Assembly (NCBI GenBank): GCA_018818785.1
Contig: JAHIRF010000008.1
Span: 62,001-126,000 of the forward strand
Source of the DNA: Thermoplasmatota archaeon
Lineage (GTDB): Archaea > Thermoplasmatota > Thermoplasmata > UBA10834
Direction of reading: 5' to 3'
DNA length: 64,000 nucleotides
Shown here in pieces: positions 22,357-27,049 of the stretch. The position numbers and the translations under genes were made by a program. The notes under the pieces were generated by a model. That model was not told the DNA's origin. It worked only from the letters and a program-made list of their open reading frames with translations, and did not search any database. Within the stretch, counting starts at the first letter, position 1. Each line of letters begins with the position of its first letter.

Positions 22357-22370
22357 GGAAAGGTTTATAT
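22357..22370 (+). promoter_or_regulatory. BRE/TATA promoter of the leucine operon leader
   Basis: GGAAAGG followed by TTTATAT (22364-22370) is one of the best archaeal promoter matches in the window. Transcription should begin near 22390, giving a leader of about 145 bases before leuA that contains a hairpin, a leader peptide frame and a T-run. Confidence 0.6.
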
Positions 22371-22393
22371 CAATCGAGGCCATGCAGATGATT

Positions 22394-22416
22394 GTCACGC
22401 TCAAAAAGGGTGTGAC
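22394..22416 (+). promoter_or_regulatory. 5' hairpin in the leuA leader
   Basis: GTCACGCTC (22394-22402) pairs with GGGTGTGAC (22408-22416) around an AAAAA loop, 9 pairs including two G-U. It would sit at the very 5' end of the predicted leader RNA. The CCTC just after it could alternatively pair with the GGAGG site of the leader peptide at 22431-22435. Confidence 0.5.
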
Positions 22417-22441
22417 CTCACTGATGACATGGAGGCAAGGA

Positions 22442-22501
22442 ATGGCACAAGAGAGTAAGATTCAACTTATTCTGCCCTTGGGGCTGCTTATCCTAGCCTA
22501 G
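22442..22501 (+). CDS. candidate leucine-rich leader peptide upstream of leuA
   Basis: A 19-codon frame with a perfect GGAGG ribosome site (22431-22435) 6 bases before its ATG, ending in TAG 35 bases before the leuA ATG. The peptide is MAQESKIQLILPLGLLILA: nine of the last 13 residues are Leu or Ile, with six Leu codons of four kinds. It lies between a strong TATA box and leuA, exactly where bacterial leu attenuators have a leader peptide. The last sense codons (ATC CTA) form the left arm of a stem that ends in six Ts. The frame and ribosome site are seen; regulation by leucine supply is inferred. A chance frame or a small membrane peptide cannot be excluded. Confidence 0.6.
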   Translation: MAQESKIQLILPLGLLILA

Positions 22502-22523
22502 ATGCTGCAGTGTAGGATTTTTT
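22483..22523 (+). terminator. candidate attenuator between leader peptide and leuA
   Basis: ATCCTA (22490-22495) pairs with TAGGAT (22513-22518), which runs into six Ts (22518-22523). A competing stem, GCTGC (22483-22487) with GCAGT (22507-22511), is mutually exclusive with it except as a pseudoknot. Both stems are short. The leuA ribosome site GGAG (22524-22527) directly follows the T-run, so control could also act on translation. Confidence 0.4.
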
Positions 22524-22536
22524 GGAGAGTGTTTTG

Positions 22537-24177
22537 ATGCCCACACAAGCTCCGAGTGAGAATGCTAAACAAGAAGAGAACATCGCGTTCAAGGTCCCAG
22601 ACAAAGGGGTCTTCGTCAGTGAATACAATGAACAGATCTTTCGGGCGACCAGGATGCCAGAGACTGTGAAGATCCTGGATACGACCCTGAGGGACGGCGA
22701 GCAGACGCCCAATGTGGCTCTCTCGATCGATGACAAGCTAAAAATCGCACAGGCGTTGGACGAGCTTGGAGTGGATATAATCGAAGCCGGTTTCCCTGTC
22801 AACTCAGAGGGCGAGGCAGAGGCTGTGAAGAGAATCGCTGCGGCAGGGCTCAAGAGCGAGGTCTGCGGACTTTGTCGCGCGAGCAAGCTAGACATAGATG
22901 CCGCATTGACTTGCGATGTTGATTCGATCCATATATTCCTGGCGACCTCAAAAGTACACCTGGAGAAGAAGCTCAAGATATCCAGGGGGGAGGCTGTTGA
23001 AAAGGCTGTGACCGCCGTGCAATACGGAAAGGATCACGGGTTGATAGTCGAGTTCAGCTGTGAGGATGGTACGAGGACCGACCTCGAATTCCTCAACACC
23101 GTGCATAAGGCGATTGAGGAGGCAGGTGTCGACAGGATCGATATACCAGATACCGTCGGTGTCATGACACCGCAGGCGATGATGCAGTTCGTCTCGGAGA
23201 TCAAGAAGACGACGAAGGTGCCTCTCGCAGTGCACTGCCATGATGATTTCGGACTCTCGGTCGCCAACTCCCTGGCGGGCATACTAGGGGGCGCGGAAGA
23301 AGTCCATTGCACGATAAATGGCCTTGGAGAGCGCGCGGGAAATGCCGCCCTCGAAGAGGTCGTGATGGGACTCCAGGCGTTCTACGGGATAAAGACTCGG
23401 ATCAATACGAGGAAGATGGCTTTCGTGTCGAGACTCGTGTCACAGCTCACTGGAATAGCGGTCCAACCGAACAAGGCCATCGTGGGCGAGAACGCGTTCT
23501 CGCACGAAGCTGGGATACATGTCCATGGGGTGCTGAGCGAGAGCTCGACCTACGAACCAATGAGACCTGAGATCGTCGGCAAGGAGAGGGTGTTCGTAGT
23601 CGGCAAGCACTCAGGAGTACACGCTGTACAGAACAAACTGAAGGAATACGGGCTCGACCTAACAGGGGACCAGCTCAAGGAAGTGGTCGCGAGGATAAAG
23701 AAGTACGCGGAGTCCGGAAAGAAGCTGGATGATGCCGAATTGCTCGCAGTCGCCTATGACGAGATAAGTGAGGAGAAGGAGCCTGTGATAAGGCTCGAGG
23801 AATTCACGGTCTTCACTGGACTGAACTTCACACCAACGGCCACGGTCGTTCTCAACATCGATGGAGATGTCAGGCGGGCGTCGGAGACCGGTGTGGGCCC
23901 GATAGATGCGAGTCTGAGCGCGATAAGGACTGCCGTATCAAAGAATATCGTGCTGAAGCAATACAGGCTCGAAGCGATAACCGGTGGGTCCAACGCGCTC
24001 TGTGAGGTCACAGTGAAGCTCGGAGATTGTGAGGACTCTCAACTTCTCGCACTAGGGAAGAGCGTCGGTTCGGACATAGTCACGACCAGTGTGGATGCCA
24101 CCGTGGAAGCGTTGAACAGGCTCTGGATGCACAAACTTGGCGCAAATGGCGACAAGGTCAAAAGGAAGGCGTACTAA
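22537..24177 (+). CDS. leuA: 2-isopropylmalate synthase
   Basis: A 546-residue acyltransferase that commits 2-oxoisovalerate to leucine. The HMGL-like TIM barrel opens with VKILDTTLRDGEQTPNVALS at about residue 44 and has the metal ligands in VHCHDDFGLSVAN and GLGERAGNAALEEVVM. The C-terminal LeuA dimer/feedback domain is present (VLKQYRLEAITGGSNALCEV). I start at ATG 22537, with GGAG 9 bases upstream; TTG 22522 is an alternative. The context with leuCDB makes leucine synthesis far more likely than citramalate or homocitrate synthesis. Expression is probably governed by the leader region before it. Confidence 0.94.
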   Translation: MPTQAPSENAKQEENIAFKVPDKGVFVSEYNEQIFRATRMPETVKILDTTLRDGEQTPNVALSIDDKLKIAQALDELGVDIIEAGFPVNSEGEAEAVKRIAAAGLKSEVCGLCRASKLDIDAALTCDVDSIHIFLATSKVHLEKKLKISRGEAVEKAVTAVQYGKDHGLIVEFSCEDGTRTDLEFLNTVHKAIEEAGVDRIDIPDTVGVMTPQAMMQFVSEIKKTTKVPLAVHCHDDFGLSVANSLAGILGGAEEVHCTINGLGERAGNAALEEVVMGLQAFYGIKTRINTRKMAFVSRLVSQLTGIAVQPNKAIVGENAFSHEAGIHVHGVLSESSTYEPMRPEIVGKERVFVVGKHSGVHAVQNKLKEYGLDLTGDQLKEVVARIKKYAESGKKLDDAELLAVAYDEISEEKEPVIRLEEFTVFTGLNFTPTATVVLNIDGDVRRASETGVGPIDASLSAIRTAVSKNIVLKQYRLEAITGGSNALCEVTVKLGDCEDSQLLALGKSVGSDIVTTSVDATVEALNRLWMHKLGANGDKVKRKAY

Positions 24178-24195
24178 CAGAGGGGGTGGGTGACA

Positions 24196-25449
24196 TTGGC
24201 AAAGACCATGGCAGAGAAGATATTGTCAGCGAAGGCTCGGAAGGACGTCCGCGCAGGAGAGATCGTCGAAGCCGAGGTCGATTATGTGATGGTGAACGAC
24301 ATCACGGCTCCAGCGGCGTTCGATGAGTTCGAAGGTTTCTGCACGCCACCGCTGGAGAAGAAGATGGTCCTGATCCCGGACCACTATGTTCCGAACAAGG
24401 ATGTGGCATCTGCGATCCAGGCGAAGAAGATGAGGGATTTCGCGTCCAAGTACAAGATACGCAACTACTTCGAGATAGGGTCCGGCGGCGTCTGCCACCA
24501 GCTGATGATCGAGAAGGGGTTCGTCGCGCCTGGGAGGCTGATAGTCGGAGCCGATTCACATACATGCTCATACGGGGCGATGGGCGCGTTCGCCACTGGG
24601 ATCGGAAGCACCGAGGCCGCGACGGTGTTCGCGAGAGGCGTCCTCTGGTTCAAAGTACCAGAATCGATGAAGTTCGAGGTAAACGGACAGCTTGGAAGAC
24701 ACGTGTCTGGAAAGGACATAATACTCACGATCATAGGAGACATAGGGGTCGAAGGTGCACTCTACCAGTCGATGGAAGTCGTCGGTGACACCATCTCCGC
24801 ATTGCCCGTCTCTGAAAGGGTGACGATATCCAACATGGGCATAGAAGCGGGAGCAAAAGCCTGCATAATACCGCCGGACGCGAAGGTGGATGACTATCTG
24901 AAGGGGCGTGTCAGAGACACCTATGAGAAGGTGTATGCTGACAAGGATGCCGAGTATTCGGACATAAGGAAGTACGATGCGAAGGACATTGTCCCGGTGG
25001 TCGCGAAGCCGTTCCTGCCGAGCAATGTGGCGCCCGCAAGCGAGGTCGGGGTAACCATCGACCAAGCGTATCTAGGCTCATGCACTAACGGAAGGATAGA
25101 GGATCTCAGAGTCGCCGCAGCGATACTGAAAGGTAAGAAGGTACATGAAGGGGTCAGGATGATTGTAGTGCCTGCGAGCAAGGATGTCTTCGACAAAGCG
25201 ATGGAAGAAGGACTGTTCAAGATATTCTCCGACGCTGGTGCATTCATATCCGGTCCCACATGCGGCGCATGCCTTGGGGGTTACATGGGCGTGCTCGCTC
25301 CAGGCGAAAGATGCGTCAGCACGACGAACAGGAACTTCATCGGAAGAATGGGACACATGGAATCCGAGGTCTACCTTGCGGGTCCCGCAGTCGTCGCAGC
25401 GAGCGCAGTTGCGGGGAGAATAGTCGATCCGTCGGAGGTGACTGGATGA
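24196..25449 (+). CDS. leuC: 3-isopropylmalate dehydratase, large subunit
   Basis: A 417-residue aconitase-family subunit. It opens with AKTMAEKILSAKA, matching the usual LeuC N-terminus from TTG 24196, with GGGGG about 9 bases upstream. The substrate and cluster segments are complete: ADSHTCSYGAMGAFATGIGSTE, GSCTNGRIEDLR with one cluster Cys, and GPTCGACLGG with the other two, followed by CVSTTNRNFIGRMG. The stop overlaps the leuD start (ATGA). A homoaconitase role is possible in principle, but the operon argues for leucine. Confidence 0.95.
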   Translation: MAKTMAEKILSAKARKDVRAGEIVEAEVDYVMVNDITAPAAFDEFEGFCTPPLEKKMVLIPDHYVPNKDVASAIQAKKMRDFASKYKIRNYFEIGSGGVCHQLMIEKGFVAPGRLIVGADSHTCSYGAMGAFATGIGSTEAATVFARGVLWFKVPESMKFEVNGQLGRHVSGKDIILTIIGDIGVEGALYQSMEVVGDTISALPVSERVTISNMGIEAGAKACIIPPDAKVDDYLKGRVRDTYEKVYADKDAEYSDIRKYDAKDIVPVVAKPFLPSNVAPASEVGVTIDQAYLGSCTNGRIEDLRVAAAILKGKKVHEGVRMIVVPASKDVFDKAMEEGLFKIFSDAGAFISGPTCGACLGGYMGVLAPGERCVSTTNRNFIGRMGHMESEVYLAGPAVVAASAVAGRIVDPSEVTG

Positions 25450-25949
25450 AATCGCACTTCGGCGGGAAGGCATGGGTGTTCGGGGACAATGTGGATACCG
25501 ACCAGATCATACCGGCAGAGTATCTCGTCACGATGAACAGCGCAGAGCTTGCCAAGCACGCGTTCGTGAAGGTGATGCCAGAATTCCCTGTCAACGTGAA
25601 GGAAGGCGATGTGATAGTCGCCGGAAGGAACTTCGGATGCGGCTCGAGCCGAGAGCATGCACCCAGGGCATTGATGGGAGCAGGGGTGTCCTGCGTCATA
25701 GCGGAATCGTTTGCCAGGATATTCTTCAGAAACGCGATCAACATAGGGTTACCAGTCATCGAGGCAACGCTGGAGGTCGACCAGGGAGACGATATCGAGG
25801 TGGATGTATCGAAGGGTGTCGTCAGGAACGACAGCTCCGGAAAGGAAACCACGTTCGCCAGCTATCCGCCTTTCGTGATGATGCTCATGGAGAAAGGGGG
25901 TCTAGTACCCTACACCAAGGAGAGATTGGGTTGCACAAGATCGGAGTGA
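25446..25949 (+). CDS. leuD: 3-isopropylmalate dehydratase, small subunit
   Basis: A 167-residue swivelling-domain partner of LeuC. It has GKAWVFGDNVDTDQIIPAEYL at the N-terminus, the substrate-binding NFGCGSSREHAPRAL block (about residues 63-77), and SFARIFFRNAINIGLPVI. ATG 25446 overlaps the leuC stop by 4 bases. Its own end overlaps the leuB start by 19 bases. Length and motifs are normal for the archaeal family. Confidence 0.96.
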   Translation: MKSHFGGKAWVFGDNVDTDQIIPAEYLVTMNSAELAKHAFVKVMPEFPVNVKEGDVIVAGRNFGCGSSREHAPRALMGAGVSCVIAESFARIFFRNAINIGLPVIEATLEVDQGDDIEVDVSKGVVRNDSSGKETTFASYPPFVMMLMEKGGLVPYTKERLGCTRSE

Positions 25950-27049
25950 TCCCAGGAGATGGGATAGGACCAGAGGTGGTCAGGGAAGCGCGCAAGGTCC
26001 TGGACGTCATCTGCGAGAGAAAGGGAATCCAGCTAGATTTCGAAGAGTTTCCACTGGGCGCAGCGCACTACCTGAAGACGGGAGAGGTGCTCTCAGACGA
26101 GACCATATCAAGATTGGAGGAGAAGGAGTCCATCCTGCTCGGCGCAATGGGTGATCCCCGGGTCAGCCCAGGAGTGCTCGAGAAGGGCGTCCTGCTCCGC
26201 CTCAGGTTCCACTTCGACCAGTATGTCAACCTCAGACCTGTAAAGCTGTTCCAGGGAGTGCCTGCCGCATTGGCTGGCGATAGGAAAATAGACATGCACT
26301 TCATCCGAGAGAACACGGAGGATTTCTATGTCGGCCTGGGCAGCCGGGTCAGGACGGGATCTTCGAGAGAGCAACTCAAACTCATCAGAGAGACCTATGA
26401 GGTGAAATTCGACATAGGAATAGACCTCAAAGACACAGACGAGCTGGCATATCAGATAGGAATCATCACCAGGCAAGGTGCCAGGCGCGTGATCGACTAC
26501 GCGTTCGATCTCGCAAAGAAGAAGGGTGCCGACCTCGTGACCTCCGTCGATAAGGCGAATGTCCTCACAGAAGTCTACGGACTCTGGCGAGAAGAGGTGG
26601 AGAAAGCATCGAGCAGCTACGGGATAGAGAAGGAGTTCCAGTATGTCGATGCGGTGGCACTGCACATGGTCAGGAACCCAGAGAGGTTCAAGGTTCTGGT
26701 CACGCCCAACCTGTTCGGAGACATACTGACGGATCTGGGGGCAGCGTTGCAGGGAGGTCTCGGATTTGCGCCATCGGGGAATATCAACCCGAGCGGTGTT
26801 AGCATGTTCGAACCAGTCCATGGTTCGGCTCCAGATATCGCGGGAAAGGGTCTGGCAAACCCGGTCGGAGCGATCCTCTCATCGGCCCTGATGCTGGACA
26901 CTCTAGGATACAAGGATGCTGCTCATGAGATGGAATCAGCGGTCATGAGCGTCTTGAGCGATGGAAAGCACAGGACTGCGGATGTTGGCGGCAAGATGTC
27001 GACCACGGCCATGGGAGATGCGGTCCTCAACGCGCTGAAGAGCCAGTAA
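25931..27049 (+). CDS. leuB: 3-isopropylmalate dehydrogenase
   Basis: A 372-residue isocitrate/isopropylmalate dehydrogenase family enzyme that oxidises and decarboxylates 3-isopropylmalate. It opens with HKIGVIPGDGIGPEVVREA; the substrate and metal motifs IRENTEDFYVGLG, VTSVDKANVLTEVYGLW and TPNLFGDILTDLGAALQGGLG are intact, and the nucleotide-site FEPVHGSAPDIAGKGLANP follows. TTG 25931 is chosen because the homologous N-terminus begins there and AAGGAG lies 7 bases upstream within leuD. The frame is open further upstream only as a shadow of leuD. Confidence 0.95.
   Translation: MHKIGVIPGDGIGPEVVREARKVLDVICERKGIQLDFEEFPLGAAHYLKTGEVLSDETISRLEEKESILLGAMGDPRVSPGVLEKGVLLRLRFHFDQYVNLRPVKLFQGVPAALAGDRKIDMHFIRENTEDFYVGLGSRVRTGSSREQLKLIRETYEVKFDIGIDLKDTDELAYQIGIITRQGARRVIDYAFDLAKKKGADLVTSVDKANVLTEVYGLWREEVEKASSSYGIEKEFQYVDAVALHMVRNPERFKVLVTPNLFGDILTDLGAALQGGLGFAPSGNINPSGVSMFEPVHGSAPDIAGKGLANPVGAILSSALMLDTLGYKDAAHEMESAVMSVLSDGKHRTADVGGKMSTTAMGDAVLNALKSQ

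Follow-up and report, generated by a model that had tools for sequence, protein, structure and literature searches.

The leucine operon of a Thermoplasmata archaeon is preceded by a short Leu/Ile-rich reading frame, which we propose to be part of a cis-acting leader-peptide regulator that senses leucine through the decoding of its Leu codons and most likely acts on the translation of leuA; from sequence comparison and modelling we put the probability of this reading at roughly 0.6. Leader-peptide attenuation is textbook bacterial regulation, and archaea, judged from the comparisons below, appear to use the same trick, i.e., amino-acid sensing via translation of a leader peptide. The leader described here is one instance of what the comparison indicates to be a widespread system, a point that the original prediction, made for this locus, understated. 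The host is a non-methanogenic Thermoplasmata archaeon known from its assembly alone, and "the window" refers to the whole 64,000-nucleotide stretch of its DNA that was analysed.

The leuA locus and its leader

All features of the locus lie on the forward strand. The TATA box TTTATATC is found at 22364-22371 (TTTATA is present upstream of the first hairpin, P1, in 18/18 members of the family), and from the TATA box alone the transcript start is predicted at about 22391-22395. The leader ribosome-binding site GGAGG (22431-22435) stands 6 bases ahead of the ATG of a 19-codon ORF, MAQESKIQLILPLGLLILA, which with its stop codon occupies 22442-22501 and carries six Leu and three Ile codons within its last 13 codons. 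A gap of 35 bases (22502-22536) separates the leader stop from the leuA ATG at 22537. The TATA box, GGAGG spacing, 19-codon frame, 35-base gap and Leu/Ile counts given in the original prediction were all re-read in the sequence. The genes are arranged in the order leuA-leuC-leuD-leuB, with leuA (2-isopropylmalate synthase) at 22537-24177, leuC (3-isopropylmalate dehydratase large subunit) at 24190-25449, and leuD and leuB in ORFs spanning 25260-27049 whose true starts lie inside the ORFs as listed; the leader sits between the TATA box and leuA, and a divergent prephenate dehydratase gene is located on the other side of the leuA locus. Read from an in-frame upstream ATG at 22424, the leader of the window genome would gain six codons (MTWRQG...). 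Aligned relatives favour the SD-preceded start at 22442 over 22424, although an ATG at exactly the 22442 column is not present in all of them (L004 differs).

Chance is a poor explanation for such a frame. When the 200 nt preceding leuA were dinucleotide-shuffled 20,000 times, no shuffle contained an SD-led ORF there with at least nine Leu/Ile in the last 13 codons, and a looser Leu-rich criterion was reached by 3% of the same shuffles. Among the 54 ORFs of at least 200 amino acids in the window, leuA is the sole gene with such an upstream frame. The listing of leaders in other genomes selects the most Leu/Ile-rich ORF at each locus, and a fixed criterion and shuffles were therefore applied as well: under a strict automated criterion a leader was scored at 69 of 106 leuA loci, compared with 1.4% in shuffles.

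Leaders upstream of leuA in related genomes

All 21 genomes of the window's order yielded a leuA-family match. In the window's family (f1) a leader lies upstream of leuA at 18/18 loci and ends in variants of LLILPLGLLILA before the stop, and both loci examined in the sister family carry leaders as well, MDAKRSSASILPLQLLLLLC and MSGSKSHNAILSLLLLLLG. In a second order of the same class, which we infer to be Methanomassiliicoccales from the presence of mcrA in 57 of 61 of its genomes (none was found in the window genome), inspection combined with ORF listing identified a leader at about 81 of 90 leuA loci, for example MIFAQHAGLLLIG, MIFKLTTELILLK and MSINVLDWNLILRLL, and no recognisable leader at the other nine. 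Thus a putatively translatable frame with its own SD sequence is positioned between promoter and operon, as in an attenuator, at 18/18 family loci and at most loci of the second order. The leaders are 12-21 codons in length, and the spacing between their stop and the start of the gene is short and fairly constant. The original prediction had called for an alignment of leuA upstream regions; in the upstream regions compared here, both orders keep the short frame, its SD sequence and its Leu/Ile tail, whereas the other residues, the Leu codons and the flanks drift.

Three further observations concern these loci. At two f6 loci (L070 and L071, in genomes G115 and G114) a CCGTC/GACGG-like version of the A:D pair described below is visible by eye in the absence of a recognisable Leu-rich leader. 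The f20, f24, f25 and f27 leuA loci share, at the nucleotide level, TTTTGCG in the leader and CTCATYGCTG behind it; the latter can pair with the leader start, and TTTTGCG has no explained partner. At haloarchaeal plasmid loci no obvious Leu leader was seen by eye in the stretch inspected, a result of little weight as one of them is annotated as citramalate synthase.

Codon and residue pattern of the leaders

In the Methanomassiliicoccales leaders, codons and neighbouring residues vary and Leu/Ile is kept. In f6, most genomes have Leu or Ile at positions -2 to -5, where all six Leu codon types (CTT, CTA, CTC, CTG, TTG and TTA) occur, the first half of the leader is variable except for the start, and pN/pS over the last 12 codons is 0.88. 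This drift of codons with retention of Leu/Ile points to regulatory codons rather than a peptide with a function of its own. The f1 tail is more conserved than that of f6, also at the nucleotide level, in part because it pairs with the leader start; nucleotide conservation is strong in the later half of the f1 leader. Overall Leu makes up 37% of the leuA leader tails, which are thus enriched in codons for the pathway product, as expected of a ribosome-mediated attenuator.

The peptide itself might instead be the signal: on sensing leucine, the nascent chain could arrest the ribosome close to the end of the leader, much as TnaC responds to tryptophan. Nearly all f1 leaders keep LPLG and a final LA before the stop, and every group has Leu near the stop; however, beyond Leu/Ile no peptide motif is common to f1, f6 and f20-27, and pN/pS over the last 12 codons is 0.88 in f6, so that we give nascent-peptide arrest only a slim chance.

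Leaders upstream of ilvB, hisG and trpE

Leaders were also found upstream of ilvB at 42/42 loci listed, from the window's order and from f20, f24, f25 and f27 of Methanomassiliicoccales, with MRASAGHCGLAPILVVLGVLVDLRILRP and MTTTNRATVSLLLGVVVVLIR as examples; at the few f6 ilvB loci inspected no leader was seen. Their tails contain 25% Val and 28% Leu, compared with 3.5% Val in the leuA tails, part of which excess may be inflated by the choice of ORFs (L+I+V was favoured for ilvB and L+I for leuA); the aligned leuA leaders likewise lack Val runs. Leader composition therefore tracks the pathway product, Leu for leuA and Val/Leu/Ile for ilvB, and Val/Leu/Ile leaders at ilvB are what a codon-based sensing model predicts. 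The ilvB leaders (L126-L146 and L191-L214; L138, on G000:C9, in the window's own genome) are about 20-30 codons long, and a stable hairpin is usually present at or just behind their stop.

The same composition makes it very improbable that the frames are general reinitiation or expression-boosting leaders with no part in amino-acid sensing, a role that has been proposed for bacterial leaders (PMC4833913) and with which the short and fairly constant stop-to-gene distance would agree.

Upstream of hisG (L220-L239; L231, on G000:C11, in the window's own genome) a short ORF ending in LH(G/A) was observed at 20/20 loci of the window's order. These ORFs are mostly 13 codons long, their stop lies mostly inside an apparent hairpin, and there is only one His codon near the end. 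No consistent His leader was found at hisG in Methanomassiliicoccales, and no Trp leaders were seen in trpE upstream regions.

Predicted RNA structures at the two ribosome sites

In the predicted fold of the window locus, hairpin P1 (GTCACGCTC..GGGTGTGAC, 22394-22416, MFE fold) forms at the predicted 5' end; 5 of its 8 pairs have changes on both sides among relatives and 82% of cells are paired. Strand A (TCACTG, 22418-22423) pairs with strand D (CAGTG, 22508-22512) in RNAfold to give P2. In P3, the leader SD/start region (22434-22441) is paired with 22491-22498 (TCCTAGCC), which comprises the final Ile/Leu/Ala codons ahead of the stop, according to RNAfold, the swap test and pair counts. Hairpin P4 (AGAGTAAG/CTTATTCT, 22452-22473), inside the leader, is predicted by RNAfold only, in the window and relatives, and RNAfold also predicts P5 (GCCC-TTG-GGGC, 22474-22484) over the Pro-Leu-Gly codons. 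P5 is not strictly conserved, synonymous GGT breaking it in L003 and L012, and was for this reason rejected as the cause of LPLG conservation. The leuA SD sequence (GGAG, 22524-22527) may form a hairpin with leuA codons (GGAGAGTGT/ACACAAGCTCC, 22524-22553) with the start codon in the loop; in the family its mean pairing probability is about 0.6 and 93-94% of cells are paired with no double changes, and the region is paired somewhat differently in the window's single-sequence MFE and centroid structures.

Since A and D shift between subgroups, pairing was assessed by a partner-swap test; MAFFT/RNAalifold applied to each group gave a good consensus for parts only. In these permutations, which like the shuffle controls ignore kinship among the genomes, the A x D pairing of the window's family was matched by 0/2000. 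Pairing of the leader initiation region with the stop flank was likewise equalled by 0/2000 permutations in each of f1, f6 and f24-27, with null results for control windows; the test was negative in the six-member f6b and not significant in f20. The pairing of the leuA SD sequence with leuA codons 2-9 was equalled by 0/2000 in f24-27 and 3/2000 in f6, and found no support in f1, where the leuA codons hardly vary and covariation is lacking for that reason. An all-by-all comparison of sequence windows picked up these contacts again and, in addition, a contact of the flank with leuA codons in f24-27. In alignment pair counts the percentage paired exceeded 500/500 shuffles, as did the covariation score for A:D and the f1 structure, and the covariation score of the f6 leader-flank helix was reached by 3/500. 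By eye, the leader start pairs in f20-f27 with the post-stop motif CTCATYGCTG, and in f6 it is contained in a local hairpin, with mid-leader pairing to a post-stop segment and A:D closing over it. The comparison thus shows a predicted pairing of the leader ribosome site with sequence around and behind its own stop, and a leuA ribosome site for which leuA codons 2-9 are a possible pairing partner.

A riboswitch-like RNA that binds leucine or a protein, in which base pairing would account for the Leu codons and the ORF would go unsensed, would also suit the extensive structure (the window fold has a z of -2.7 against shuffles) and the strongly conserved nucleotides of the later half of the f1 leader. 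Yet the Leu codon families differ between lineages, the ilvB leaders add Val, the f1, f6 and f20-27 structures differ in sequence, and nine loci were without an Rfam match at gathering score, all of which makes an RNA of this type improbable.

A predicted switch and the effect of ribosome position

In Methanomassiliicoccales the comparison shows that D, just upstream of the leuA SD sequence, has two possible partners, leuA codons and strand A, the latter located upstream of the leader start or at it; in f6 its pairing with leuA codons makes up the outer portion of the hairpin that holds the leuA SD sequence. One strand serving either fold constitutes a predicted switch. Candidates for mutually exclusive structures are A:D and the leuA hairpin, which compete in f6, and in f24-27 the flank covaries with leuA codons; no such competition was found in the window's family, which has all of these parts but with D lying outside the leuA SD hairpin.

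In footprint-constrained folding of f6, pairing of the hairpin 5' strand rose from 0.43 in the free RNA to 0.81 once a ribosome occupied the start of the leader, and the leuA site became about 2 kcal/mol harder to open. A leucine-dependent release of the leuA SD sequence in all groups was considered and rejected, as the 1-2 kcal/mol shift was found only in f6/f6b; no clear shift was obtained in f1 and f20, and in f24-27 a shift of about 1 kcal/mol in the opposite sense was seen with the ribosome at the stop. In the window's family the predicted accessibility of leuA was hardly changed by ribosome position.

Proposed mechanism

When leucine is plentiful, repeated initiation on the leader would keep A covered by ribosomes and D free, the leuA SD hairpin would form, and leuA expression would be low. 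When leucine is short, a ribosome may stall on the leader Leu codons and, because the leader is only 12-21 codons long, would shut out the next initiation and leave A free; A:D could then form around the stalled ribosome, weaken the SD hairpin and allow leuA to be translated.

The leucine-dependent position of the ribosome might, on the other hand, decide transcription termination before leuA, at a T6 run (22518-22523) or through the archaeal factor FttA/aCPSF1. The run stands 6 nt behind the D strand, just before the leuA SD sequence, and T5-6 is kept in most genomes of groups g1 and g2. In g3, however, it is shorter or interrupted, being degraded to AATTTTGG or AATTCTGG; f20 and f27 have no U-run between the structure and leuA, and the listed ilvB structures have no shared U-run behind them. 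No conserved intrinsic terminator with a U-tract before the first gene was found across g3, f20/f27 and the ilvB loci. Being degraded in g3 and not common to the other groups, the T6 run makes termination less likely as a common mechanism, and we consider transcription attenuation unlikely, though in g1/g2 it may still operate. Since no U-tract is common to the groups, translational attenuation is probably the better model.

The original prediction held that charged Leu-tRNA is sensed either in the bacterial manner or by a translation-coupled variant. Sensing gains support from the leader, SD sequence and Leu/Ile tail conserved in two orders and from the Val/Leu/Ile leaders at ilvB. As to the manner, covarying structures at both ribosome sites speak for the translational variant, and the U-tract terminator expected of the bacterial type is not shared.

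Relation to known systems

Bacterial ilv leaders are rich in Leu, Val and Ile, and leu leaders in Leu. Like the bacterial leu/ilv attenuators (LeuL and IlvL type), the present loci have a short SD-led leader containing the product amino acids between promoter and first gene, surrounded by RNA structures; they differ in being archaeal, in lacking a shared terminator U-tract and an Rfam match, and in having their structures built around the start of the leader itself and the ribosome site of leuA. In ermC-type translational attenuators a stalled leader ribosome frees the downstream ribosome site, whereas here the inducer would be lack of leucine and not an antibiotic, and the anti-sequestor would form behind and around the stalled ribosome. 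A structured RNA upstream of archaeal leuA, the leuA-Halobacteria RNA motif, is probably of another class; the present loci gave no Rfam 15 match at gathering score.

The actinobacterial LEU element upstream of leuA (PMC1262725) similarly has a run of Leu codons in the leader, the leuA SD sequence in a stem, and no terminator described. There it is the run of Leu codons that pairs with the leuA SD sequence, a pseudoknot has been proposed, and classical attenuation was argued against as leader-codon mutations did not act as predicted (PMC1262725). In f1, by contrast, the final leader codons are paired to the leader start, and leuA codons to the leuA SD sequence. Pairing of the late leader with the leuA SD sequence, as in the LEU element, was tried and rejected, since it was without covariation in the four groups tested.

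None of nine loci matched Rfam 15 at gathering score, and the window gave only sub-threshold lncRNA matches. No archaeal leader-peptide attenuator was found in Rfam or in the open-access literature that was searched, and within that scope the original statement that there was no established archaeal case holds.

Conclusions

We consider it somewhat better than an even chance that in Thermoplasmata leuA and ilvB, together probably with hisG in the order to which the window belongs, are controlled by leader peptides of translational attenuators in which the leader start is locked by sequence around and behind its stop, and that this is a general archaeal strategy. If true, amino-acid sensing by the translating ribosome would extend to a second domain, within a lineage that has methanogens among its members, with consequences for the question of how tightly translation and gene control are tied together in archaea; the approximately 100 leuA and 40 ilvB leaders form a ready set for its analysis.
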